From Cytophagaceae bacterium (GTDB taxonomy: Bacteria; Bacteroidota; Bacteroidia; Cytophagales; Spirosomataceae): a DNA stretch of 64,000 bases. Each line of letters opens with the position of its first letter. Position 1 is the stretch's first letter. The notes under the pieces were generated by a model that worked only from the letters and a program-made list of their open reading frames with translations, did not search any database and was not told the DNA's origin. The position numbers were made by a program, and so were the translations under genes. Positions 2,180-47,368 of the stretch are shown piece by piece. The stretch is from NCBI GenBank assembly GCA_027486845.1, contig JAIXOL010000027.1, positions 62,001 through 126,000 of the forward strand. Reading direction: 5' to 3'.

Positions 2180-4652
2180 GTTCTAAAGTAAACTTAACGC
2201 CGAATTTCTTGATATTTGGTGCATCAATGTACGATAAACGATGTATTGCCTCCACTCGAAGCACTTTGAAGATATTATTAATTCCATAACCTAACTCAAC
2301 ATAAGGTTTTCTACCAAGACTACTGAAAGGTAAAACATCGACAGAAGGATTCATCTGCTGGTTTTTTCTTGATAATTGCCCAATCAAGAATTTTCCAGTT
2401 GTAAAAGTTCTCCATTTTAGTTTTTTTATCAATGGAAACCGATTAAACAAAAGGCCTTCAAAATCGTGTGTATAGCGAGCGGAAGCATAGCGGTCACTTA
2501 TAAACTCAAAATTATTCATCAAATTGAATGAATTTCCTACGATAAATATACTTTGGTTTCCTAAATGACTTTTAAGCAAAGGATAAGGCAAAGTACCAAA
2601 AATCGCCCCGGCTTCAGCTTTGTAATATGTTTTACCAAAATAACCTAGGTTAAGCGTATGACTATATTTTGCCATCAGCTTATGATAATTAAAATCACTA
2701 TTAAAAATATTTTTTGCACCCAAAACATATCTAAATGTAATCGTAGGCGATTTTGTAGTACCAAAACTCAATCTTTCATTATCATTGACAATCGCCAGTT
2801 CATCACGGGCTAAGGTAACTTCTGATAAAAATTCTGACGTATTAAAACGTGTAATGAGTGTCGAGGCTTCTCCCAAACTAGGTTTTTCACGATATGAGAA
2901 ATCATATATTGGATTAAAATTTCTTGTTCTAAAGCCAAAAATTGTAAAAACGCCTTTGGAAACTTCACGCTGTAGTTGTATTTTTCGTTCGGTTTCATAA
3001 AATGGACGCATTAGGGTTCCAAATCTCATATATGCCGAAAAAATAGCTCCTAAACCTAAATCTTCTTGACGTAAACCAACTTGTTCAAGATCATTAGTAT
3101 ATTTGATGCTAATAGTTGTCCATGGTTTTCTCGAAATAATTCTTGTTAGCTCCCCGCCCATTTTCCAAGCTTCATCTTTGGTGCCATAAGCCAAATAACC
3201 TTGCAAAATCCACTTTCTACTAAACTCAAAATTAGTTCGTAAACCTAGACGCATTCTTAAACCCTCAATATTATTAATTGCTCCCGAATAAACCAAGGGT
3301 CCAAATTCGATGCCTTTATAAATTTTTTTATAACCACTCGAAAGCAATAATGCTAAATTACTATATCGTCGTACGATTGGAACATTTTTAATTGTATCAA
3401 TCATCGCATATGCCATTTGCTCTTTTTCAGAAAAAGCTTCTGGCCGAACTTTTTGCCAATAAGAATTATCATTTTCTTTAAAATCAGACAAAATCTCAAT
3501 GCCATTATCAAAGAATTTTGCATCTTTTACTTTATCCACAACAATATCTTGATTGTAATTTGTAAACTTCAAAAGCAATCCTGCTGAGTTTTTGGTCAAT
3601 TCGTTAACATCTACTAAAATACGATTTTTCACTGGAAACCAAATATTACCAACTGGTTCAAGTTCTTGTTGAATTTTAATGCGTTCTACGAAGTTTAGAT
3701 TTGCATCTTTGGTAATCGTAGCATCAATTTGAGCAATAGCCCAAGTTTTTTTATCAATCCAAATTGAGCCAGCAAAGGCCAAATCTTGCTTTCTTTTAGG
3801 AGTAAAATCAATTTTATAACAAAAACTATCACCAAAAAAAGTACTATCAGCCAAGTAATAATCGTAGATAAATTTCCAATCATCAGCAATTGGCGAGGCA
3901 AAGTTTTTATCTAGAACGCTTACTTGATTTACATAAAAATTATATTGTTGAAAAGAAGAACCAATAAGCTGAGAAGTTAGACTGCCATCGGTCACACCTA
4001 CACCTTTAATATTGGTTTTTTCAATAATTTCCTTTGAAAGACGAGGATTATTGCGATAATAATAATGCGAAACTGACTCAGAAATAAATGACGGGAGTAA
4101 CACATTTCCATCATCATCGGTTAGTGTACCGATTTCTTTAATAGCCTTATCTACTTTTTGAGTAATTCGCCGTTGACGTAGCTTTTCGCTAATTTTATTA
4201 AAATCAACTTCAATTTTATTGTAACTAGCGTAATCAAACCCGTTTAACTTCTTATAATTATTCTCAGATTTGGCAGCAACTGTTTTCCTTAAGATTCGGT
4301 GAGCTGGATTTTCACCTGCATAAACTTTTACTTCTTGTAAAAGTATTTCAGATGGTTTTAGTTGAATGTAAATCGTTTGTGTTAGCGAATCTTTTGAAAT
4401 GTAGAATAACCTTGAAAAATAGCCGAGACAACTAATAAGAAGTGAATCTGAAGGTACTGAGCCAAGCAAAAACTGAAAATTGCCTTCAAAATCCGTATTT
4501 TTACCAAGTGAGGTATTTTTAATATTTATTGAAGCAAAAGGTATTGGGTCTTTCGTAACTGCATCAGTTACTTTACCTTTTAAAATATATACATTTTGAG
4601 AAAAAACAAATTGAGATGTTAGTATAAAAAATATTACGAAATTTTTTTTCAT
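2169..4652 (-). CDS. DUF5686 family outer-membrane protein with carboxypeptidase-like regulatory domain
   Basis: 827 residues. A signal peptide (MKKNFVIFFILTSQFVFSQ) is followed at about 23-105 by a carboxypeptidase-D regulatory-like beta-sandwich (GKVTDAVTKDPIPFASI), as seen at the N-terminus of many Bacteroidota outer-membrane proteins. The rest matches the DUF5686 pattern: a central periplasmic-type region, then a C-terminal half of alternating aromatic beta-strands ending in FTLEL, as expected for a beta-barrel. It has no typical TonB box or SusC plug. The biochemical role of DUF5686 proteins is unknown. It stands alone on this strand, about 120 bp downstream of the ispG operon, and is convergent with the previous gene. 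Confidence 0.85.
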   Translation of the reverse strand: MKKNFVIFFILTSQFVFSQNVYILKGKVTDAVTKDPIPFASINIKNTSLGKNTDFEGNFQFLLGSVPSDSLLISCLGYFSRLFYISKDSLTQTIYIQLKPSEILLQEVKVYAGENPAHRILRKTVAAKSENNYKKLNGFDYASYNKIEVDFNKISEKLRQRRITQKVDKAIKEIGTLTDDDGNVLLPSFISESVSHYYYRNNPRLSKEIIEKTNIKGVGVTDGSLTSQLIGSSFQQYNFYVNQVSVLDKNFASPIADDWKFIYDYYLADSTFFGDSFCYKIDFTPKRKQDLAFAGSIWIDKKTWAIAQIDATITKDANLNFVERIKIQQELEPVGNIWFPVKNRILVDVNELTKNSAGLLLKFTNYNQDIVVDKVKDAKFFDNGIEILSDFKENDNSYWQKVRPEAFSEKEQMAYAMIDTIKNVPIVRRYSNLALLLSSGYKKIYKGIEFGPLVYSGAINNIEGLRMRLGLRTNFEFSRKWILQGYLAYGTKDEAWKMGGELTRIISRKPWTTISIKYTNDLEQVGLRQEDLGLGAIFSAYMRFGTLMRPFYETERKIQLQREVSKGVFTIFGFRTRNFNPIYDFSYREKPSLGEASTLITRFNTSEFLSEVTLARDELAIVNDNERLSFGTTKSPTITFRYVLGAKNIFNSDFNYHKLMAKYSHTLNLGYFGKTYYKAEAGAIFGTLPYPLLKSHLGNQSIFIVGNSFNLMNNFEFISDRYASARYTHDFEGLLFNRFPLIKKLKWRTFTTGKFLIGQLSRKNQQMNPSVDVLPFSSLGRKPYVELGYGINNIFKVLRVEAIHRLSYIDAPNIKKFGVKFTLELTL

Positions 4653-36226: not shown

Positions 36227-38122
36227 TTAGTCATTTTTACAACCACCGATTTCGGCCGAAAAGTCACTACCCAATTTGGCATCAAAACCATGATTTAAAT
36301 CAATTGATTTTTTTGCTGTCAAAGATAGTTGTTTTGTATCAGTTATTGCAACTATTGCAGTTATTGATGTATTTGCTCCAATGTAGGCTATTACTGGCAC
36401 AACCTTTAAATTTACATTCTCGAGGCATTTTAAGGTTACTTCCTTAGTATTTGACTTATTATTTGGAATATTTTCAACAAAAACTCTATAAAAATAAGTT
36501 TTTCCAAGTTCGGTTTGTGTATCGTAGTAATTATCGCCTGATATTTGACCGATTTCCCCAAAGCTAACATTATCAGTTGAACGTTCGATATGATATTTAG
36601 TTTGTGCATTACCATTCCAAGTAAGTTTTATTTGAATATCTTCATTGACTTCAGTATTCAAATTTATCACAGTGGGCGGTTGAGTAATTACTGGAGTCTC
36701 GCCTCCAATTGATATATTATCAAAACTAAAAGCACGCATTCCATATTTGTTTTTTAGATGAACACCATCATAAAAACTCACACCCCACTGACCATAGGCA
36801 TTTGGTAAATAAGACACCTTTTTGGCATTTTGAATGGAAGAAACTGTTAAAAAAATCCTATTTCCTTGTGCTTCGCCACCTTGCACTACATCATTTCTAC
36901 CATCAACATAAATAAAATCTTTCATACTCCAATTTTTGCCTGAAGCCACCGAATCTTGGGGATAAATCATTTCCATACCTTCATCAAACTCTAAAACCAA
37001 TTTCTGATTTTCCCAATATACTTTTTTTATGTCCGGAGAATAAATTTGTGGAGATTGATTGTCATTGTAAACGTCGCGACCAATAATTCTTGAAAGTTCA
37101 TAAGCGGTTTGGCTGTAACCTTTTAAATTATAGTGTAGGCCATCATAGCCTGTCGTTCCGACTGTGCTTATGGCTGTGGTTTTGGGTAAAAGGTATTTCG
37201 TACGACGCTGATAATCTCTCAGAAAGCCCGCTTTACTATTACTAATAGTAAGTATATTCGTTTGAACATTATAAAACTTTTTGAGGTTCGGAAAATCTAC
37301 AACAAAAGCATTGTATAGTTTTTCAAACTCACTAGGATATTGCTCTGACTCAAGTTGAAGTGAACCATCACTTTCACCATGACGAAAAATTATGTATTTA
37401 ATTTGATCTTTTAAATCACTAAAAATTGTTTGCAAAAGTAATTTACCATAATATGTATTTTTATCAGTAGGATTTTGAGCATTTCGAGAATTTAATCCTT
37501 TAATATCCGAACCTCCAACAGAAGCCACAATAACACCAACAGGATAATTATATTTACCGCACAAAAACTTCTGAAGTTCAAGCGTGCCTGTGCCTGGCCA
37601 AGTAGAAGTTTTATAAGGTAAAACCCATTCACTATCGCCATTATCGAAATTTGTAACTGTAAAAAACCTAATAAGTGGATTAGGTTCTGGTCGATATGTT
37701 TCAATCCCTCCTGAACCTAATGCGTTAGACTGACCATAAATTAAAAACAAGTCACCAACACCAATTTGCGTAGCTTTTTTGATTTCTCTTGAACCATCAA
37801 GCGTAAGAATAAATGTATAATCAAATTTACCAGCTTTTAGGTTTGGTGAAAAAGTAAAATCTGAAGCAGCGTCTAAGGTTTGTTCGGAGAAAGTATTTCC
37901 ATCTTGTAGGATTTTCAAAGTAATAGAAGAGTGACCATTTTCAGTTATTTTTCCTTTTACTTGAAAAACGGCTTCATTTTGATCATTTCGTTGAATAACT
38001 TGATTATTAGCAGGGAATTTTGAAAGGCTGACCTGCGAAAAAACACTTATGCTACTCAAAAAGTGCATAGAAATGATTATTATAGAGCAAAATCGAATTT
38101 TATAGAGGGACAAAACAGTCAT
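36227..38122 (-). CDS. Secreted sialate O-acetylesterase-like protein (SASA domain)
   Basis: 631 residues from the ATG at 38122, which starts a signal peptide ending SISVFSQ; an upstream in-frame ATG at 38179 adds residues that do not look coding. An N-terminal Ig-like domain precedes the SGNH catalytic region: IYGQSNALG near residue 130 (Ser), VGGSDIKG, IIFRHGESDG near 244, and YDGLHYNLKGY near 325 (Asp/His). Fibronectin-III-like strands follow (HIERSTDNVSF), and the end is a HGFDAKLGSDFSAEIGGC motif found at the C-terminus of many Bacteroidota secreted proteins. It is a paralogue of the first gene and of 61164-63857 but lacks a type A T9SS tail. Confidence 0.87.
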   Translation of the reverse strand: MTVLSLYKIRFCSIIIISMHFLSSISVFSQVSLSKFPANNQVIQRNDQNEAVFQVKGKITENGHSSITLKILQDGNTFSEQTLDAASDFTFSPNLKAGKFDYTFILTLDGSREIKKATQIGVGDLFLIYGQSNALGSGGIETYRPEPNPLIRFFTVTNFDNGDSEWVLPYKTSTWPGTGTLELQKFLCGKYNYPVGVIVASVGGSDIKGLNSRNAQNPTDKNTYYGKLLLQTIFSDLKDQIKYIIFRHGESDGSLQLESEQYPSEFEKLYNAFVVDFPNLKKFYNVQTNILTISNSKAGFLRDYQRRTKYLLPKTTAISTVGTTGYDGLHYNLKGYSQTAYELSRIIGRDVYNDNQSPQIYSPDIKKVYWENQKLVLEFDEGMEMIYPQDSVASGKNWSMKDFIYVDGRNDVVQGGEAQGNRIFLTVSSIQNAKKVSYLPNAYGQWGVSFYDGVHLKNKYGMRAFSFDNISIGGETPVITQPPTVINLNTEVNEDIQIKLTWNGNAQTKYHIERSTDNVSFGEIGQISGDNYYDTQTELGKTYFYRVFVENIPNNKSNTKEVTLKCLENVNLKVVPVIAYIGANTSITAIVAITDTKQLSLTAKKSIDLNHGFDAKLGSDFSAEIGGCKND

Positions 38123-38168
38123 TTTATTATTTTTTTTAATTAAATAGAAAAATCGTGCCAAAAAAACA

Positions 38169-38205
38169 CAAAAGGGCACTTTCCTGTTAATTAAAGCACC
38201 TTTTG
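38169..38205 (-). terminator. Possible terminator after the L,D-transpeptidase gene
   Basis: The arms caaaagg and ccttttg form a 7-bp stem about 15 bp after the minus-strand stop, followed on that strand by a T-rich stretch. Confidence 0.45.
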
Positions 38206-39070: not shown

Positions 39071-39886
39071 TTATTTTTCAAATAACCATTTCAAGAAAAT
39101 AGGCATAGCTTCGCTCCAAGTTTTTTGGTTATGTTCGCCGCCTTCAATTTCCATATATTCAATATCTTCTCCTATTTTATAACCTTTAACCTCTAATTCT
39201 TTAATTAAATCAAGCGTATCATCAATTGAATCGATGATACCGTTTTTATTTCGGTCGTCTTGCTCATCATTTGTACCACATTCGAACCAAAACTTTTGAC
39301 CATGATTAAAACTTCCTTCACGAACCAACACGTGCATAATACGGTCATTATGGTCATCGTAGCCATCTTCATAAGCTTTCTTTCGCCACCAAAATGAACC
39401 ACTAAAAACCCCAACTTTAGAAAAAAAACTAGGATTCCCCCAAACTAAATCCATAGCTGAAAGTCCACCTAATGAAAAACCACAGAAATAATTGTCAATA
39501 TTGAGACTCGATACTTTATAATTAGAATTCACAAGTGGAAAGAGTTCCAATGTAATAAAACTTTGGTAAGCACCTGCCAAATTTCCTCGATTTTTATAAT
39601 CAGAAATAGAAGCTGTTCCGTATTCCTGCAAACGTAAAGGCTGAGTTCCACTTTCACTAGCATGTAATCCCACAAAAACTAAGGGTTGAATTGTCGAAGC
39701 AGCGTATAAATTGTTTAAGGTCTGCTCTATTTTTAGTTGGTCAAAATCTTGTCCATCATTCATGTACAAAACTTTTAAATTTGTTATTTTTTCGTAATTC
39801 GGTGGTAAAATAACATCATAAATCACCTCACGATTAAGAAATTTGGATTGAATTTTTTGGTTTTTAAAAACAGAGACTTTTTGCAC
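39071..39886 (-). CDS. Alpha/beta-hydrolase esterase (enterochelin esterase/esterase D-like)
   Basis: 271 residues without a signal peptide. FCGFSLGGLSAMDLVWG near residue 137 is the nucleophile elbow (G-x-S-x-G). WFECGTNDEQDDRNKNGI near 195 gives the acid residue region, with a calcium-binding-like D-x-N-x-N-G loop, and GGEHNQKTWSEAMP near 255 the catalytic histidine. This is the PF00756 esterase pattern (Fes, esterase D). It is divergent from the esterase that begins the amidoligase cluster, separated by 329 bp, and may belong to it. Substrate unknown. Confidence 0.87.
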   Translation of the reverse strand: MQKVSVFKNQKIQSKFLNREVIYDVILPPNYEKITNLKVLYMNDGQDFDQLKIEQTLNNLYAASTIQPLVFVGLHASESGTQPLRLQEYGTASISDYKNRGNLAGAYQSFITLELFPLVNSNYKVSSLNIDNYFCGFSLGGLSAMDLVWGNPSFFSKVGVFSGSFWWRKKAYEDGYDDHNDRIMHVLVREGSFNHGQKFWFECGTNDEQDDRNKNGIIDSIDDTLDLIKELEVKGYKIGEDIEYMEIEGGEHNQKTWSEAMPIFLKWLFEK

Positions 39887-40215
39887 TTATTCCATTTTTG
39901 TGTTGAATAATTTGACAAAATTAGCAATTACTTGGTCTTCAAAAATAAAAAAACAAAAATCATTTGTTTCATTGCTAAAATTGAACTGATATATAAAGTT
40001 TGTTTTGAATTTCGTTAAACGCAAATATTCAATTCATAAAGTTTATCGAATAGCAAAAAACAAAATATACTTTCTTGTTTATTACATAACACAGTATTAT
40101 TAAACTGTTTAAGTTTACTTTAATCTTAATTATCAATACTTTATTTGGTATAAATTTTAATAAGTAAAAACAAAACACGAGTTTTGCACTTTCATTAAAC
40201 ATACTTTTAATATTT
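39887..40215. other. Divergent intergenic region before the amidoligase cluster
   Basis: 329 bp of AT-rich DNA between two divergent esterase genes. It must hold the promoters for both directions. No clear -7 box, repeat or open frame is seen. Confidence 0.4.
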
Positions 40216-40932
40216 ATGAAAGAAAAAAATATAAAGTTTTATTCGCATATCCTAAGCCGGGACATAAATATATTGATTAGCGGGCATTGGGGATACCCCA
40301 TCTTAATGTTTCCAACATCAATGGGGGATTATCTACAAAACAAAGAGTTTGGTCTTCTCGACACAGTAGATGATTTGGTTGATGCAGGAAAAATAAAACT
40401 TTACAACATAGAAACTATAGATTTTCAAAGTTTTTATGCAAAACATTTGCCTGCACAAACAAAGATTTATAACTTTAATTTATATACACAATTTCTGAAA
40501 GAAGAATTAGTACCTGCCATTCAAATTGAATGTAACGTGCATAGAATCGCAGTTGCAGGTTGTAGTTTTGGTGGATATCATTGCACAAATTTTGCATTTA
40601 AAAACCCAAATTTAGTAGCTCATCTATTTAGCATGAGTGGTGCATTTAGTATTAAAAGTTTTATGAAAAACCACTACGATGACAATGTGTATTTCAATGA
40701 ACCAATGGATTTTATGAATCATGTTGAATCATGGAAATATAACCACATGAATATTGTTTTGGGAACATCAGATGGGGATATTTGCCGTGATGATAACCTT
40801 AAAATGTCAAGACTTTTGGCAAATAAGAGTATCAATCACTGGTATGACGAAAAACCTTGGGCAAGTCACGACTGGCCACTTTGGAAATTGATGTTTTCGG
40901 AGTATGTAAGAAAAATGCCACTTCACATCTAA
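40216..40932 (+). CDS. Esterase-like alpha/beta hydrolase, first gene of amidoligase cluster
   Basis: 238 residues, no signal peptide, so cytoplasmic. VAGCSFGGYHCTNFAFKNP near residue 113-118 is the nucleophile elbow (G-x-S-x-G). VLGTSDGDICRDDN near 175 and PWASHDWPLWK near 215 supply Asp and His, so a full Ser-Asp-His triad is present. It belongs to the PF00756 esterase group but is shorter than usual. It could trim a thioester, ester or peptide product of the ligases encoded downstream. The ATP-grasp gene starts 135 bp later, after a GC-rich hairpin. Confidence 0.82.
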   Translation: MKEKNIKFYSHILSRDINILISGHWGYPILMFPTSMGDYLQNKEFGLLDTVDDLVDAGKIKLYNIETIDFQSFYAKHLPAQTKIYNFNLYTQFLKEELVPAIQIECNVHRIAVAGCSFGGYHCTNFAFKNPNLVAHLFSMSGAFSIKSFMKNHYDDNVYFNEPMDFMNHVESWKYNHMNIVLGTSDGDICRDDNLKMSRLLANKSINHWYDEKPWASHDWPLWKLMFSEYVRKMPLHI

Positions 40933-41035
40933 AAATTGGTTATTTATTACAGAATACTGGTAACTAAAAAAGATACTTTTTTATCATAAATCGTGCTTTT
41001 AATACCCCTACAAGCATTGCATCATCTTAAAATAA

Positions 41036-41059
41036 GTCCCCCTTTTGGGGTCAGGGGGC
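41036..41059 (+). promoter_or_regulatory. GC-rich hairpin covering a Shine-Dalgarno-like sequence before the ATP-grasp gene
   Basis: gtccccc at 41036-41042 can pair with gggggc at 41054-41059, or CCCC-TTTT-GGGG (41039-41050) can form a shorter stem. The AGGGGG of the 3' arm lies about 10 bases before the ATG at 41068, in a Shine-Dalgarno position. It stands out from the AT-rich surroundings. It could control translation, or be one copy of a dispersed repeat. Confidence 0.45.
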
Positions 41060-41067
41060 ATTTACTT

Positions 41068-42069
41068 ATGAAAAAAATTGGCATATTATTCGGAATGGAA
41101 GATACCTTCCCTTGGGCATTTATCGAGCAAGTAAACAAAACTGCTCCAAAAGGAATTATTGCCGAGGCAGTTCAAATTGACAAAGTAGAACAAGGCGTGG
41201 CAACTGATTACGCTGTAATTATTGACCGTATATCGCAAGATGTGCCATTTTATAGAGCATATTTAAAAAATGCTGCCCTATGTGGAACAGCAGTTGTTAA
41301 TAACCCATTTTGGTGGAGTGCTGATGAAAAATTCTTTAATAACTGTTTGGCAGTAAAACTCGGTATTCCTGTGCCTAAAACCGTACTTTTACCATCAAAA
41401 GAACGACCTAGTGAAACTTCAGAAAAATCATTTCGAAATTTGGTTGCTCCACTTGATTGGGATTATATGTTCAATCAAATTGGTTTTCCTGCCTATATGA
41501 AACCACATTCTGGAGGAGGTTGGAAGAGCGTTTATAGAGTTGATAATCCAGAGGATCTATGGAAAAAACATAGCGAAACAGGTCAATTAGTAATGCTTTT
41601 GCAAGAAGAAATTCAGTTTACAGATTATTACCGTTGCTATTGCTTAAATGGCAAATATGTGCATATTATGCCTTATGAACCTCGCAATCCGCACCATTTG
41701 AGATATGCAACACAGCCAAAAACGACTGGTGAAGCCCATAAAAAACTTATGGCTACCATTACCGACTATGTACTGAAACTCAACCAAGCTTTAGGCTACG
41801 ATTTTAACACAGTGGAATTTGCAATTCGTGACGGCATTGCATACGCAATCGATTTCTGCAATCCTGCACCTGATGCAGATATTCATTCCGTTGGACAATT
41901 AAATTTTGATTGGATTGTAGAAAATGCCTCTAAAATGGCTATTGAAAGGGCAATTGAGCAAGTTGATGGAAAAAACAATTGTACTTGGGGAACTTATGTA
42001 AGTAATGCCGCAATTCCAACAACTCCTACCGAAGCCCAATCAAAAAAAACTCTAGCTAAGAAGAAATAA
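41068..42069 (+). CDS. ATP-grasp ligase (first of two in the cluster)
   Basis: 333 residues from the ATG at 41068 (MKKIGILFGMEDTFPWAF); a longer frame starts at 40993 but runs through the GC-rich hairpin. The ATP-grasp fold shows YMKPHSGGGWKSVY near residue 152-165 (phosphate-binding lysine and Gly-rich loop), LLQEEI (adenine-side strand) and VEFAIRDGIAYAIDFCNPAPDADI near 250-275, with the metal-binding acidic and asparagine residues. The fold forms amide or peptide bonds through acyl-phosphate. Sequence does not tell the substrates. The GCS2-type ligase and amidotransferase genes follow. Confidence 0.87.
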   Translation: MKKIGILFGMEDTFPWAFIEQVNKTAPKGIIAEAVQIDKVEQGVATDYAVIIDRISQDVPFYRAYLKNAALCGTAVVNNPFWWSADEKFFNNCLAVKLGIPVPKTVLLPSKERPSETSEKSFRNLVAPLDWDYMFNQIGFPAYMKPHSGGGWKSVYRVDNPEDLWKKHSETGQLVMLLQEEIQFTDYYRCYCLNGKYVHIMPYEPRNPHHLRYATQPKTTGEAHKKLMATITDYVLKLNQALGYDFNTVEFAIRDGIAYAIDFCNPAPDADIHSVGQLNFDWIVENASKMAIERAIEQVDGKNNCTWGTYVSNAAIPTTPTEAQSKKTLAKKK

Positions 42070-42231
42070 ATTGAGCCGTATCATTGATTAAATGTCGCGG
42101 CTTTTCTTTAGATTAGATGACAAATTATTTAAGAACTAATCTCAAAAAAGAATTGTAATCATTTTTTAAACAATCTTCTGTATACATCCTACATTCTTAA
42201 TAGTGCAAAAACACTTTATACCGAATAAACT

Positions 42232-43329
42232 ATGTCTCTATTCACTTTAGGTATTGAAGAAGAGTTTCAAACCATTGACCCAAAAACTCGTGAATTACGT
42301 TCACACATGTCGAAACTGGTCGAAGGTGGGCAGGTAATTCTACAAGAACGTATCAAACAAGAAATGCATCAAGCTGTGGTAGAGATGATTTCGAGCGTAT
42401 GTGAAAACATAAAGCAAGCACGCGAGGAAGTTACATATCTGCGTAAAATGCTCATTGATTTGGCAGCCAAACAAAACCTCCATATTGCAGCAGCTGGCAC
42501 TCACCCGTTTTCTGATTGGCAGAAACAGCTTATCACCGAAGACGCTCGCTACGATAAACTCATTGACGATATGCGTGATGTAGCACGTTCAAACCTCATT
42601 TTTGGCTTACACGTACATGTGGGAATTCCGAGCCGTGAAGAGGGAATGCAGATTTTGAATGCAGCACGCTATTTTTTGCCGCACATCTACGCACTTTCAA
42701 CAAATTCTCCATTTTGGTGCGGTCGGAATACAGGTTTTAAATCATATCGTTCGAAAGTGTTCGACAAATTCCCTCGTACGGGTATTCCAGATTATTTTTC
42801 AAGCGTTGCTGAATATGATAATTATGTAAACCTTCTCATCAAAACTGGCTGTATCGACAACGGAAAAAAGATTTGGTGGGATATCCGTTTGCATCCGATT
42901 TATCCGACTGTTGAGTTTAGAATATGTGATATTCCAATGCGTGTCGATGAAACAATATGTTTGGCGGCATTGATGCAAGCAATTGTTGCGAAATTACATA
43001 AACTACATCAACAAAATTTAAGTTTCAGACCTTACCACAAAATGCTCATAAGCGAAAATAAATGGCGAGCCGCTCGCTATGGAATTCATGGAAAATTGAT
43101 TGATTTTGGTAAAGAAATCGAGGTGCCATACTCACACCTTGCTGAAGAATTAATGGAATTTGTAGATGATGTATTGGATGAACTTGGAAGTCGAAAAGAA
43201 GTAGAATTTATCCACGAAATATTAAGAATAGGCAGCGGAGCTGACCGTCAATTAAAAGTATTTGAAGAAACTAAAAGTATGAAAGCCGTTGTTGATTATA
43301 TCGTAAGTGAAAGTAAAATCGGGCTATAA
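42232..43329 (+). CDS. Carboxylate-amine ligase, GCS2/YbdK type
   Basis: 365 residues, the normal length for the YbdK-like glutamate-cysteine ligase family 2. FTLGIEEEFQTIDPKTREL at the start, FGLHVHVGIPSREEG near residue 124, and IWWDIRLHPIYPTVEFRICD near 220 are the ATP, metal and substrate blocks of this glutamine-synthetase-like fold. YbdK has weak glutamate-cysteine ligase activity; within a gene cluster with ATP-grasp enzymes a different amino-acid substrate is plausible. The upstream ligase stop is 162 bp away, so an internal promoter is possible. Confidence 0.93.
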   Translation: MSLFTLGIEEEFQTIDPKTRELRSHMSKLVEGGQVILQERIKQEMHQAVVEMISSVCENIKQAREEVTYLRKMLIDLAAKQNLHIAAAGTHPFSDWQKQLITEDARYDKLIDDMRDVARSNLIFGLHVHVGIPSREEGMQILNAARYFLPHIYALSTNSPFWCGRNTGFKSYRSKVFDKFPRTGIPDYFSSVAEYDNYVNLLIKTGCIDNGKKIWWDIRLHPIYPTVEFRICDIPMRVDETICLAALMQAIVAKLHKLHQQNLSFRPYHKMLISENKWRAARYGIHGKLIDFGKEIEVPYSHLAEELMEFVDDVLDELGSRKEVEFIHEILRIGSGADRQLKVFEETKSMKAVVDYIVSESKIGL

Positions 43330-43395
43330 ATTAGGTGTTTCTTAAATTTTAGGGTAGATTTTCATAAGTTTGCAAAAATAAATGCGTTCATAATT

Positions 43396-44220
43396 ATGAA
43401 ACAGAATATAAAAATTGCAATTTTAGATATGTACAATGGCTTTGCCAATGAAGGTATGCGTTGTATACAAATGATTTGTGGAGAATTTCTAAGACAAGAA
43501 GGTATCAAAGGAAACTACGATATTTTTGATGTCAGAAAAAAAAATGAAATTCCTAAAATTGAGCATTACGATATTTTTATTTCAACTGGTGGACCAGGAA
43601 ACCCTTTACCAGAAGGACATGATTGGGAAGCAAAGTTTGGAGACTTTTTAGACCAAATATTTAAACATAATCGTTCAAACGAAAACAAAAAATTTTTATT
43701 TCTCATTTGCCATTCTTTTCAAATTGCAAGTAATCATTTACAACTCGGAAATGTATGTAAACGTCGCTCAACTTCGTTTGGGGTTATGCCAATTCATCGT
43801 ACGTCCGAAGGCGAAACTGAACCTTTTTTTAATGGGTTACCAGAAATTTTTTACGCAGTTGACTCACGAGATTATCAAATAATTTTACCAAATTGGCAAA
43901 AAGTCAACGATTTTGGAGCAAAAGTGCTTTGTCTCGAAAAAATTCGAGAATATATACCACTTGAAAGAGCGATTATGGCAATTAGATTTTCCGAACAGGT
44001 TTTCGGTACACAGTTTCACCCTGAAGCCGATGCTGATGGCATGCTTCGTTACTTCAAACAGGAAGACAAAATGATTGCCGTTATAAGCGAACATGGCTCG
44101 GACAAATACGAACAAATGATTGACCACCTCGACGACCCAGACAAAATCATGCTAACTGAGTCAATTATCATTCCATCGTTTTTGAATCACGCTGCCAAAC
44201 AAATAATAGCAATTGCATAA
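43396..44220 (+). CDS. Class I glutamine amidotransferase-like protein
   Basis: 274 residues. Three GATase I landmarks are visible: STGGPGNPLPEG near residue 56-67, FLICHSFQIASNH with the nucleophile Cys near 105, and FGTQFHPEADADG with His and Glu near 206-212. So the triad is complete. Such domains release ammonia from glutamine, or act as gamma-glutamyl hydrolases. With ligases on both sides it may supply ammonia for amidation or remove a gamma-glutamyl group from an intermediate. It lies 66 bp after the GCS2 gene. Confidence 0.9.
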   Translation: MKQNIKIAILDMYNGFANEGMRCIQMICGEFLRQEGIKGNYDIFDVRKKNEIPKIEHYDIFISTGGPGNPLPEGHDWEAKFGDFLDQIFKHNRSNENKKFLFLICHSFQIASNHLQLGNVCKRRSTSFGVMPIHRTSEGETEPFFNGLPEIFYAVDSRDYQIILPNWQKVNDFGAKVLCLEKIREYIPLERAIMAIRFSEQVFGTQFHPEADADGMLRYFKQEDKMIAVISEHGSDKYEQMIDHLDDPDKIMLTESIIIPSFLNHAAKQIIAIA

Positions 44221-44221
44221 A

Positions 44222-44506
44222 ATGGAAAAGCCAAATTTATCGAAACAAGCTTTCTGGGATGTTGATTTTGATAGTTTAGATTATCAAAAAGAAGCTAATT
44301 GGATAATCGAACGAGTATTTGAATGGGGAAAATTGAGTGATTTAAAGATACTCATTAGATATTATAGAAATAAAAAGTGTGCTGATGCCCTAAAAAACGC
44401 CCATTTTTTAAGGCTAAATGCAATAAGTTTGGGATATTTAGTATTGGACATTCCTAAAGATGATTTCAAATGTTACACAAACAGACCTTCTCACATTCCC
44501 TTTTAA
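44222..44506 (+). CDS. Antitoxin-like protein of a AbiEii-linked module (DUF6922-like)
   Basis: 94 residues from the ATG at 44222; an ATG at 44213 would overlap the amidotransferase stop. The pattern KQAFWDVDFDSLDYQKEANW then IIERVFEWGKLSDLKILIRYY and FKCYTNR is what I recall of DUF6922-type antitoxins, which in Bacteroidota precede genes for AbiEii/AbiGii nucleotidyltransferase toxins. The protein looks intact. The toxin gene after it is truncated (see next entry). It interrupts the otherwise orderly ligase cluster, which suggests insertion. Confidence 0.75.
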   Translation: MEKPNLSKQAFWDVDFDSLDYQKEANWIIERVFEWGKLSDLKILIRYYRNKKCADALKNAHFLRLNAISLGYLVLDIPKDDFKCYTNRPSHIPF

Positions 44507-44515
44507 CAATCTTAA

Positions 44516-44806
44516 AAAATCTTATGCAGGACTGATGTATTTCCAATGAAATTTGATGCGATTTGTACCCGTAAAACGAAAAAAGATTTTATTGACATTT
44601 TAGAGTTATGCCAGCATTTTTCCTTTCACGAAGGCTTTTCTCACTTTAATATTATTTATCCTTACAGTAAAAATTCAACAATCATTTTTACTGCATTTGG
44701 TAAAATTAATCTCGCAGATAAGTCGAAAATACCAAATATGTATAAAAACTATGAATGGAATTTAGTAAAAGATAAACTAAAAAATATGCAAAAAAATACT
44801 TTCTGA
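44516..44806 (+). pseudogene. Truncated AbiEii-type nucleotidyltransferase toxin (C-terminal remnant)
   Basis: The frame open from 44516 reads TDVFPMKFDAI, then RKTKKDFIDILELCQHFSF and IIYPYSKNS, ending WNLVKDKL. These are the C-terminal blocks of AbiEii toxins (a conserved D-I-x-x-MK...A, R-x-x-KKDF-x-D and the final W-x-x-V-K segment, recalled from the family). The homology runs upstream of the only ATG (44546), so the gene did not start there. The N-terminal half with the nucleotidyltransferase GS-type motif is missing between the antitoxin stop and 44516. About 90 of some 210-230 residues remain. The start of the next ligase gene follows 4 bp later. Confidence 0.72.
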
Positions 44807-44810
44807 ACCT

Positions 44811-46004
44811 ATGATTCCTGCCATTCGACAACAATTCAACGAAAGTTTCACGCCCGAAAAATATGATGCAATGATTGAAGAAATTCATAAGGATTTCCCC
44901 AATCAACTTGATTTTCGAGTGGCAGAAACGCCTGTTTTTGTTCCAAAAGAATTAAAAATCAAGCTATTACAGGCTTGCAATGATATAATTGAGGTTTTGT
45001 TAAAACCAGATTTCAAGGAAAAAACTAATCGAGCGATTCCAAAAAACCAAAATGTGCCAAATGAAGATACACACCCGAATTTTTTGGCAATTGATTTTGC
45101 AATTTGTAAAGATGAAAACGGTGAATTGAGCCCACAACTAATTGAATTACAAGGATTTCCATCTCTTTTTGCTTATCAATGGTATTTGGGGCAGAAATAC
45201 CGCCAATTCTTTATCGACCCAAAAGGTTTTAACCAATATTTCAATCGTCTTTCAATGACATCGTATGTCGATGAAATGAAAAAAATATTGCTAGGCAGCG
45301 AAGCCGCTGAAAATGTAATCCTTCTTGAAATTTATCCAGAACAACAAAAAACTCGCTTAGATTTTGAAATCACTCGCCAACTTTGGGGAATTGAACCTGT
45401 TTGTTTGACCAAAATAATAAAAGTTGGTCGACAACTTTTCTACGAAAAAGAAGGAAAAACAATTGAAATAAAACGCATCTATAATAGATTGATTTTTGAT
45501 GATTTATTAGGCGTTCCGCATTTAAAGACAAATTTCAAAATAACAGATGATGTAAATGTCAAATGGGTAACGCACCCAAATTGGTTTTTCCGAATCAGTA
45601 AGTTTACTTTGCCTTTGCTCAAAAGTGCGTTTGTTCCGCAAAGTTTTTTTCTTTCAGATTTAAAAGAATATCCTATCGATTTAGAAAATTACGTTTTAAA
45701 ACCTCTGTTTTCATTTGCGGGGAGTGGCGTAAAACTCAATTTTACGAAGGAGGAATTAGATGCAATTCCAGACAGGGCAAATTATTTGATTCAGCGAAAA
45801 GTAAAATACGAACCAATCATTGAAGATAAAGCAGGAAATTTGATTAAGACCGAAATCCGAATGTTGTTTACTTGGGAAGATAATGCACTAAGACCAAAAC
45901 TCGTAACAAATCTTGCCCGTTTGAGCCGTGGAGAAATGATTGGCGTAAACTTCAATAAAAACTTCGATTGGGTTGGCGGTAGCTGTGCATTTTTTGAAGA
46001 TTAA
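44811..46004 (+). CDS. Second ATP-grasp-like ligase of the cluster
   Basis: 397 residues, no signal peptide. The C-terminal half carries an ATP-grasp-like core: YVLKPLFSFAGSGVKLNFTKE near residue 305-325 (ATP-binding lysine and Gly loop), YLIQRKVKYEPII near 340, and TEIRMLFTWEDNALRPKLV near 358-375 with the metal-binding acidic residue, ending GEMIGVNFNKNFDWVGGS. The N-terminal half is unlike the first ATP-grasp enzyme, so the two are not recent duplicates. Substrates unknown. Its start codon is 4 bp after the toxin remnant; in the undisturbed cluster it probably followed the amidotransferase directly. Confidence 0.8.
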   Translation: MIPAIRQQFNESFTPEKYDAMIEEIHKDFPNQLDFRVAETPVFVPKELKIKLLQACNDIIEVLLKPDFKEKTNRAIPKNQNVPNEDTHPNFLAIDFAICKDENGELSPQLIELQGFPSLFAYQWYLGQKYRQFFIDPKGFNQYFNRLSMTSYVDEMKKILLGSEAAENVILLEIYPEQQKTRLDFEITRQLWGIEPVCLTKIIKVGRQLFYEKEGKTIEIKRIYNRLIFDDLLGVPHLKTNFKITDDVNVKWVTHPNWFFRISKFTLPLLKSAFVPQSFFLSDLKEYPIDLENYVLKPLFSFAGSGVKLNFTKEELDAIPDRANYLIQRKVKYEPIIEDKAGNLIKTEIRMLFTWEDNALRPKLVTNLARLSRGEMIGVNFNKNFDWVGGSCAFFED

Positions 46005-46348: not shown

Positions 46349-47368
46349 ATGAAAAAAACATTTACTCTCATTACTCTTTTGTTGAATTTTGCGTCTTTTG
46401 CTCAAGTTAAACTTGTAAAAGAACAATTTATTGATGCGAAACCCGAAGAGATTTCTTGCCACGCCTCCACTATCGTTGAACTTTCTAATGGGAAATTTAT
46501 GGCTGCTTGGTTTGCTGGCTTGCACGAAAATCACCCAAAAGTTTGTATTTGGGTTGCAATCTCCAACAACAATGTTTGGGAAAAACCAATTAAAATTGCC
46601 GACGGCATTTATGAAGGAAAACAATATGCTTGTTGGAATCCAGTTTTGTTTAAAAATCCTTCGGGAAAATTGTTTTTATTTTATAAAGTTGGAATAAATC
46701 CAAGAGAATGGTGGGGAATGATGAAAAGTTCAACCGATGAAGGAAAAACGTGGTCGGTCGCAACTCGACTTCCAAACGATATTCTTGGCCCAATCAAAAA
46801 CAAAAGTATTCAACTAAAAAACGGAGATATTTTGCACCCTTCTAGTACCGAAAGTGTTGATAGTAAAATTTGGCATACGCATGTAGAAATTTCAGACTCA
46901 AACGGAGAAAATTGGAGGAAAATTCCAATTGAATGCGGAGAATATGGTGTAATTCAGCCTTCGGTTTTAATTCATAAAGATGGTAGATTGCAAATGCTTT
47001 TACGTAGCCGTCAAAACAAAATTATCCAATCTTGGTCGTCTGATAATGGAAAAACTTGGGGTGTACTCTCTCCTATCAATTTGCCAAACCCAAATTCAGG
47101 AATTGATGCAGTTACCTTGAAAGATGGTTCTTTTTTGTTGGTTTATAACCCACTTCCATCGGGCAAAGAGTGGTCGAAAGGAAGGAATGTTTTAAAATTA
47201 GGTCATTCAAAAGATGGAGTGAATTGGACTGACATTTATACGCTTGAAAATCAAGAAAAAGGAGAATTTAGTTACCCGGCCATTATTCAATCTTCGGACG
47301 GTTTGGTTCATATAACCTATACTTATGACCGAAAGTTGATTAAAGATGTGGTTTTGGAGGTAAAGTAA
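46349..47368 (+). CDS. Secreted sialidase-like protein with Asp-box repeats
   Basis: 339 residues with a signal peptide (FTLITLLLNFASFAQ). The six-bladed propeller type is shown by Asp-boxes (S-x-D-x-G-x-T-W): SSTDEGKTW near residue 125, SDSNGENW near 180, SSDNGKTW near 230 and SKDGVNW near 290. The N-terminal block CHASTIVELSNGKFMAAWFAG matches the BNR_2 sialidase family of Bacteroidota and plants. True exo-sialidase activity needs an arginine triad that I cannot place with certainty. Together with acetylesterase genes in the window it fits breakdown of acetylated sialic-acid glycans. Terminator follows. Confidence 0.82.
   Translation: MKKTFTLITLLLNFASFAQVKLVKEQFIDAKPEEISCHASTIVELSNGKFMAAWFAGLHENHPKVCIWVAISNNNVWEKPIKIADGIYEGKQYACWNPVLFKNPSGKLFLFYKVGINPREWWGMMKSSTDEGKTWSVATRLPNDILGPIKNKSIQLKNGDILHPSSTESVDSKIWHTHVEISDSNGENWRKIPIECGEYGVIQPSVLIHKDGRLQMLLRSRQNKIIQSWSSDNGKTWGVLSPINLPNPNSGIDAVTLKDGSFLLVYNPLPSGKEWSKGRNVLKLGHSKDGVNWTDIYTLENQEKGEFSYPAIIQSSDGLVHITYTYDRKLIKDVVLEVK

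Follow-up and report, generated by a model that had tools for sequence, protein, structure and literature searches.

A conserved six-gene cluster of Bacteroidota with three ligases, a candidate pathway to a small peptide-like or amide metabolite

We analysed a 64,000-nucleotide stretch of DNA from a Cytophagaceae bacterium (assembly GCA_027486845.1, contig JAIXOL010000027.1, positions 62,001 to 126,000), the whole of which is called the window here, and its six genes at 39071-46004. By their open reading frames (ORFs) and a Pfam and NCBIfam scan, they encode two PF00756 esterases (EstA and EstB), two ATP-grasp ligases (GraspA and GraspB), a carboxylate-amine ligase (GCS2) and a protein of the class I glutamine amidotransferase (GATase) fold (GAT). 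The six genes form a real, conserved unit. We give about an even chance to the reading that they encode one chromosomal pathway which uses ATP to build a small soluble metabolite, either peptide-like or an amide, and trims it by hydrolysis. The features are as follows.

39071-39886, minus strand: EstA, PF00756 esterase (92.7 bits, cut-off 22), divergent from the other five genes
40216-40932, plus strand: EstB, second PF00756 esterase (40.1 bits, cut-off 22)
41068-42069, plus strand: GraspA, non-permuted ATP-grasp ligase of the Ddl/ArgX/RimK type (AlphaFold2 model and Foldseek)
42232-43329, plus strand: GCS2, YbdK-type carboxylate-amine ligase (NF010039, PF04107)
43396-44220, plus strand: GAT, class I glutamine-amidotransferase-fold protein, proposed amide hydrolase (PF00117, 27.7 bits, cut-off 22.8)
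44222-44806, plus strand: insertion separating GAT and GraspB (a DUF6922 ORF and an 86-aa ORF)
44811-46004, plus strand: GraspB, circularly permuted ATP-grasp with the glutathione/glutathionylspermidine synthetase fold (Foldseek of the AlphaFold2 model)

GraspA, GraspB, GCS2 and GAT each had a search of their own (E ≤ 1e-10) against one set of 296 Bacteroidota genomes, and were found in 108, 92, 103 and 70 of them, respectively. GraspA occurs together with GraspB in 89 genomes, with GCS2 in 91 and with GAT in 69, against 33.6, 37.6 and 25.5 expected, with p-values uncorrected for phylogeny. All four genes are present in 50 genomes and lie within 10 kb in 30, where their order along the strand is always GraspA-GCS2-GAT-GraspB (30/30). 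Pairwise, GraspA and GCS2 are on one strand and at most 6 kb apart in 57 of the 91 genomes having both, and so are GAT and GraspB in 40 of 55. In the host family, GraspA and GraspB are each found in 88 of 101 genomes. The lists compared by eye give the same 88 genomes for both and the same 13 without either. Three of these GraspB matches (G352, G360 and G370) are fragmentary or interrupted.

Scanning with an alignment of GraspB confirmed at least 592 stretches, and the best 80 of them, with flanks of up to 9 kb, are the named loci below, some being cut by contig ends. All 80 come from Bacteroidota-type organisms by name, including two Ignavibacteria. Near GraspB, they hold GAT in 70 loci, GCS2 in 51, GraspA in 44 and each esterase in 37. 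The fetched flank contains all six genes in 33 loci, and all 33 have the arrangement of the window, with EstA on the minus strand and then EstB, GraspA, GCS2, GAT and GraspB on the plus strand. GAT and GraspB are the tightest pair, no more than 1.5 kb apart in 70/70 loci holding both (GAT on the opposite strand in 2), with a median gap of 79 bp in the 68 loci with GAT on the plus strand. The cluster can be split, as in G150 with EstA-GraspA-GCS2 (L036) and GAT-GraspB (L037) on separate contigs. No match was found in plasmids by tblastn with the GraspA and GraspB queries.

A preliminary description of this DNA had proposed the cluster and named gene co-occurrence as the test that could refute it. 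The genes co-occur and co-locate across Bacteroidota, so the proposal holds. To call them always together is too strong, because EstB, GAT or GCS2 is absent or elsewhere in some lineages. Its genes and coordinates agree with the ORF list, the sequence and the Pfam and NCBIfam scan, and only the start of GraspA is refined, because its aligned homologues start at, or close to, the ATG at 41068 rather than the earlier GTG at 40993. It had seen no carrier protein, peptide precursor or transporter, and none is among the six core genes.

GraspB has no Pfam or NCBIfam match at E ≤ 0.01. Its AlphaFold2 model, made with 45 sequences, has a mean predicted local distance difference test (pLDDT) score of 92.6, and a Foldseek search of the PDB with this model matches 29 chains at E ≤ 0.001, all of one fold class. 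They are glutathione, homoglutathione, glutathionylspermidine and trypanothione synthetases, YgiC/YjfC, nematode GSS-like proteins and Cp1B, and include 3n6x, 1m0w, 7uk8, 2io7 and 9cjn. The glutathione/glutathionylspermidine synthetases are circularly permuted ATP-grasps. GraspB has the permuted arrangement in its motif order, with IELQ at residue 111, YVLKPL at 294 and EIRML at 348, and is classed with them by the structural match together with the ExN-like motif N-terminal to the Lys/Gly-loop. The second ATP-grasp was earlier described as unlike the first, and Foldseek indeed assigns GraspB to another fold class than GraspA.

The likeness of GraspB to the glutathione synthetase class is a fold relation, because the query template modelling (TM) scores against the PDB are 0.45-0.62 and the identities 9-17%. 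A profile search of the PDB sequences with GraspB returns YgiC alone and weakly (E 0.0088). GraspB falls outside the GSP_synth family, having no PF03738 match at E 0.01, and the host genome carries a separate true PF03738 GSP_synth protein on another contig. Fusions or partners of GraspB in L132, L133, L137, L140 and L141 were considered as a Rosetta-stone signal and rejected. Upstream of GraspB are an SSF symporter (L132 and L133, two f28 genomes) and, in the others, serine palmitoyltransferase-like, CorC-like and cyclase parts. There is no such signal because these parts are mutually unrelated except for the symporter of L132 and L133.

The other two ligases are of more familiar types. The GraspA model has a pLDDT of 83.8 (33 sequences), and the best 50 of its 561 Foldseek matches at E ≤ 0.001 are ordinary ATP-grasp ligases, including D-Ala ligases (Ddl), ArgX, PsnB and RimK. 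GraspA is below the cut-offs of the RimK family (TIGR00768, 30.5 vs 143.4 bits) and of the R2K ATP-grasp clade R2K.2/R2K_2 (PF18299, 22.9 vs 26.2 bits). GCS2 exceeds its curated cut-offs (NF010039, 551.9 vs 371 bits; PF04107, 219.3 vs 21 bits), matches E. coli YbdK (PDB 1r8g) with an E of 4.8e-67 and is the sole PF04107 match in the host genome.

GraspA often extends beyond its catalytic core. The core end was recognised in 55 of 62 sequences, and 36 of these 55 have a tail of at least 25 aa, which is at least 25% K/R in 19 of the 36. The tail of the window copy is short. The C-termini in L041, L038, L067, L071 and others are Ala/Lys/Pro-rich histone-like tails of up to 144 aa.

GAT belongs to the class I fold by its PF00117 score of 27.7 against 22.8 bits and by the Cys-His-Glu triad residues. 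PF00117 is the sole family over the cut-off, and a PuuD/C26 model is absent among the matches up to E 1. The complete triad of the preliminary description is confirmed by C105, H208 and E210, which we take to be the catalytic residues and which are invariant in 14/14 aligned sequences.

Some lineages in which GAT is not detected carry a 339-aa member of the M29 aminopeptidase family in its slot, between GCS2 and GraspB. Such proteins of L134, L149 and L150 score 55.8-64.7 bits with PF02073 (cut-off 27), and tblastn finds the slot M29 also in the named loci L094 and L115. An ORF after GCS2 in L148, considered as another one, is FloA. The L150 protein as query has matches in 45/296 genomes, 6 of them close, namely its own genome and five at 59-65% identity. 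GraspA is present in 6/6 and GAT in 0/6 of these genomes, and the close M29 lies between GCS2 and GraspB in 5/6, counting G251 with its GCS2 broken over two contigs, and elsewhere in G208.

This exchange favours the view that one amide hydrolase would replace another. Hence, a trimming hydrolase is favoured over an ammonia donor for GAT, because an M29-family protein occupies its slot in a few GAT-less lineages. Both roles had been offered before, and the slot exchange favours the removal of a gamma-glutamyl or terminal residue over the ammonia supply.

Each esterase has its own place in the cluster. EstA is the divergent partner in 33/33 six-gene loci and has GFSLG at residue 136 and a His in EHNQ at 251. 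EstB has GCSFG at residue 115 and HDWP at 218, and adjoins GraspA in 36 of the 37 named loci with both. By rows picked by eye, at least 51 of the 108 GraspA genomes have it on the strand of GraspA and no more than 2.5 kb away.

The proposed pathway would begin with GCS2, which would couple an amine with a carboxylate, the gamma-carboxyl of glutamate being the most likely one. The two ATP-grasps would then lengthen the molecule via acyl-phosphate intermediates, and GraspB would join the carboxylate of the peptide to either an amino acid or a (poly)amine. GAT, or M29 in a few lineages, may cleave an amide and take off the gamma-glutamyl or a terminal residue. The esterases would act on an ester or thioester form, to remove or recycle it. 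The wide presence in the host family (88 of 101 genomes) suggests that the product is used by the cell itself rather than being a sporadic antibiotic. That the ligases work in sequence toward a small metabolite was proposed already in the preliminary description; the folds are consistent with it and the sequence of steps is what we infer.

More tentatively, the product may be a gamma-glutamyl-built peptide or a peptide-polyamine conjugate that is widespread and undescribed. It would be made by three ligases and deprotected by an interchangeable enzyme, a GATase-fold protein that is not an ammonia donor or an M29 protein. In this more specific version, GraspB would be the founding member of a bacterial family that is new within the glutathione/glutathionylspermidine synthetase fold. 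We regard it as possible but clearly less probable than the general pathway.

Several observations weigh against the proposed pathway or its trimming step, in addition to the uncorrected p-values above. GAT is absent from 39 of the 108 GraspA genomes, of which 6 have the close M29 and 33 have no identified substitute, so the M29 argument rests on few lineages. Distant M29 matches (26-37% identity) occur in 39 genomes, some with GAT, such as G132 and G140. The exclusion between M29 and GAT within the 108 GraspA genomes has a hypergeometric value of 0.0017, which is post hoc because the line between close and distant M29 was drawn after viewing the list. GCS2 may be dispensable, because the four genomes with GraspA, GAT and GraspB that belong to f8 all lack it at E ≤ 1e-10. 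EstB-like proteins are in 125/296 genomes and outnumber the 108 with GraspA, so their family is broader than the pathway. In the EstB homologue of L042 (10533-11255), Asp replaces the catalytic Ser (GCDLG), and this copy is likely inactive as an esterase.

Four other explanations can be weighed with the same evidence. Class I GATases are classically ammonia donors, and GAT and GraspB could be an ammonia-dependent amide synthetase, in which GAT would hydrolyse glutamine and channel the ammonia to GraspB, which would amidate a carboxylate made by GCS2 and GraspA. This agrees with their being the tightest pair, but M29 aminopeptidase-family proteins are not known to donate ammonia, and such proteins take the GAT slot of a few other lineages. 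Moreover, 37 of the 92 GraspB genomes have no detected GAT. In the nearest GraspB folds, the nucleophile is an amino acid, a peptide or a polyamine (PMC12568646 for Cp1B and YgiC/YjfC). On balance, the amide synthetase is unlikely.

GCS2 with a ligase of the glutathione synthetase fold also matches the logic of glutathione. In such a redox system, GCS2 would make gamma-Glu-Cys or a relative, GraspB would complete a tripeptide or add a polyamine, and the esterases would resemble S-formylglutathione hydrolases, which PF00756 includes. However, the host genome has BshC, so that bacillithiol is likely among its thiols, and this lowers the thiol reading. It has the separate GSP_synth on another contig as well, and no glutaredoxin, glutathione transferase or glutathione reductase is among the six core genes, the scope of that search. 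We hold the redox system to be quite improbable.

The E-64 ligase Cp1B has the GraspB fold and raises the idea of a secreted natural product of the E-64 or dapdiamide type. This is very improbable, as the presence in 88 of 101 host-family members better fits a physiological metabolite and as, in the 40 most frequent neighbour clusters inspected by eye, no transporter recurs directly next to the core. The RimK/ArgX/PsnB-like fold of GraspA and its Lys/Ala-rich tail in many species would suit the tagging of a protein or peptide, with GraspA adding residues to a macromolecule. The window copy has a short tail, and inspection of those 40 clusters by eye (ORFs of at least 80 aa) revealed no conserved gene for a precursor or a target. 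Tagging is the least probable of the four, and the pathway to a small soluble metabolite remains our preferred reading.

Some loci vary from the common arrangement. L046, L048, L135 and L151, of another lineage group, have a 451-483-aa protein between GraspA and GAT. Of the three copies scanned with CP_ATPgrasp_2 (cut-off 32), that of L048 scores over at 37.3 and those of L046 and L135 under at 23.7 and 20.9. The L135 and L151 copies match that of L048 by blastp with about 62% identity. Thus, this CP_ATPgrasp_2-like protein, a second permuted ATP-grasp, probably replaces GraspB there. In L045, an Abhydrolase_2 protein is two genes upstream of GraspA.

In L034 (1715-5607) and L041 (3639-7119), a row of genes next to the cluster encodes an EstA-like esterase, an M17 aminopeptidase and a third ATP-grasp, as assigned by Pfam for the L041 copies and by clustering for L034. 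The row is a possible accessory module. The M17 and the third ATP-grasp were found in none of the 80 named loci at E ≤ 1e-8 and are therefore no general part of the cluster.

In 23/80 loci (e.g. L062, L064 and L067), a protein that by eye resembles class III aminotransferases is downstream of GraspB, and in 15 it comes directly after it. A thioredoxin-like gene follows further downstream in 14 of these loci. The aminotransferase was rejected as a core gene because the genera are of the Cytophagales type by name throughout and because of the thioredoxin-like gene in 14; it is probably lineage synteny, and could be accessory. Transporter-like proteins, recognised by eye, lie farther off, with an Amt-like one about 9 kb upstream in 11/80 loci and an RND-like one in 5.

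In the window, the cluster is flanked by a SASA-domain sialate-esterase-like protein (36227-38179) and a BNR-repeat protein (46349-47368), and a BNR-repeat gene is near the cluster in L052 too. The GAT-GraspB spacing of 587 bp is due to the insertion, which L052, the closest named relative, does not have; there, the blocks flanking the site are 9 bp apart, one ending at 3503 and the next resuming at 3513. The DUF6922 ORF (about 44222-44506) scores 67.1 bits with PF21956 (cut-off 27), and the 86-aa ORF (44546-44806) has no Pfam match at E ≤ 1. The pair may be a toxin-antitoxin-like remnant. Judged from the sequence comparison, the insertion is outside the conserved pathway.

If the proposal is right, about a third of the sampled Bacteroidota (GraspA in 108/296) and most of the host family (88/101) keep this pathway. 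Identifying its product would reveal a common small molecule of environmental Bacteroidota and assign a function to a ligase family that was matched by no Pfam or NCBIfam model here. It would also test the exchange of a GATase fold with an aminopeptidase as a deprotecting step.

The cluster resembles known systems in parts. The PuuA-PuuD putrescine utilisation joins a gamma-glutamyl ligase of the glutamine-synthetase/COOH-NH2 superfamily with a class I GATase hydrolase, whereas the core here has no oxidase or dehydrogenase and has two additional ATP-grasps. Eukaryotic-type glutathione synthetase works beside a GCS-type ligase. It and homoglutathione synthetase share the fold class of GraspB (E down to 1.2e-13), but with 9-14% identity, and GraspB is a 397-aa protein of a bacterial gene cluster for which gamma-Glu-Cys is not indicated as the substrate.

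YgiC/YjfC and GspS are permuted ATP-grasps like GraspB, with Foldseek E values of 2.4e-14 for 3n6x, a putative GspS, and 1.2e-12 to 2.8e-11 for YgiC, YjfC and E. coli GspS. They differ in that the identity to the YgiC/YjfC/GSP_synth proteins is 12-17% and GraspB has no PF03738 match. Amidoligase neighbourhoods linking ATP-grasps, GCS2-type ligases and peptidases were reportedly compiled by Iyer et al. in 2009, and this combination may already be among them.

Cp1B is an ATP-grasp that forms a pseudodipeptide, making an amide bond in E-64 synthesis, and has no detectable Pfam domain; its structure is near those of homoglutathione synthetase and of YgiC and YjfC, which are peptidylpolyamine synthetases (PMC12568646). 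GraspB shares with it (PDB 9cjn) the glutathione-synthetase-like ATP-grasp and the lack of a Pfam family, and Cp1B acts in a small amide pathway. Cp1B differs in being fungal and in having an amide synthetase of the ANL family, an oxygenase and a decarboxylase as partners instead of GCS2 and GAT. In the accessible part of the open-licence literature, we recognised no paper describing this exact cluster. The enzyme types are known singly, and what is new within the searchable sources is their combination, the family-less GraspB and the exchange of GAT with M29.

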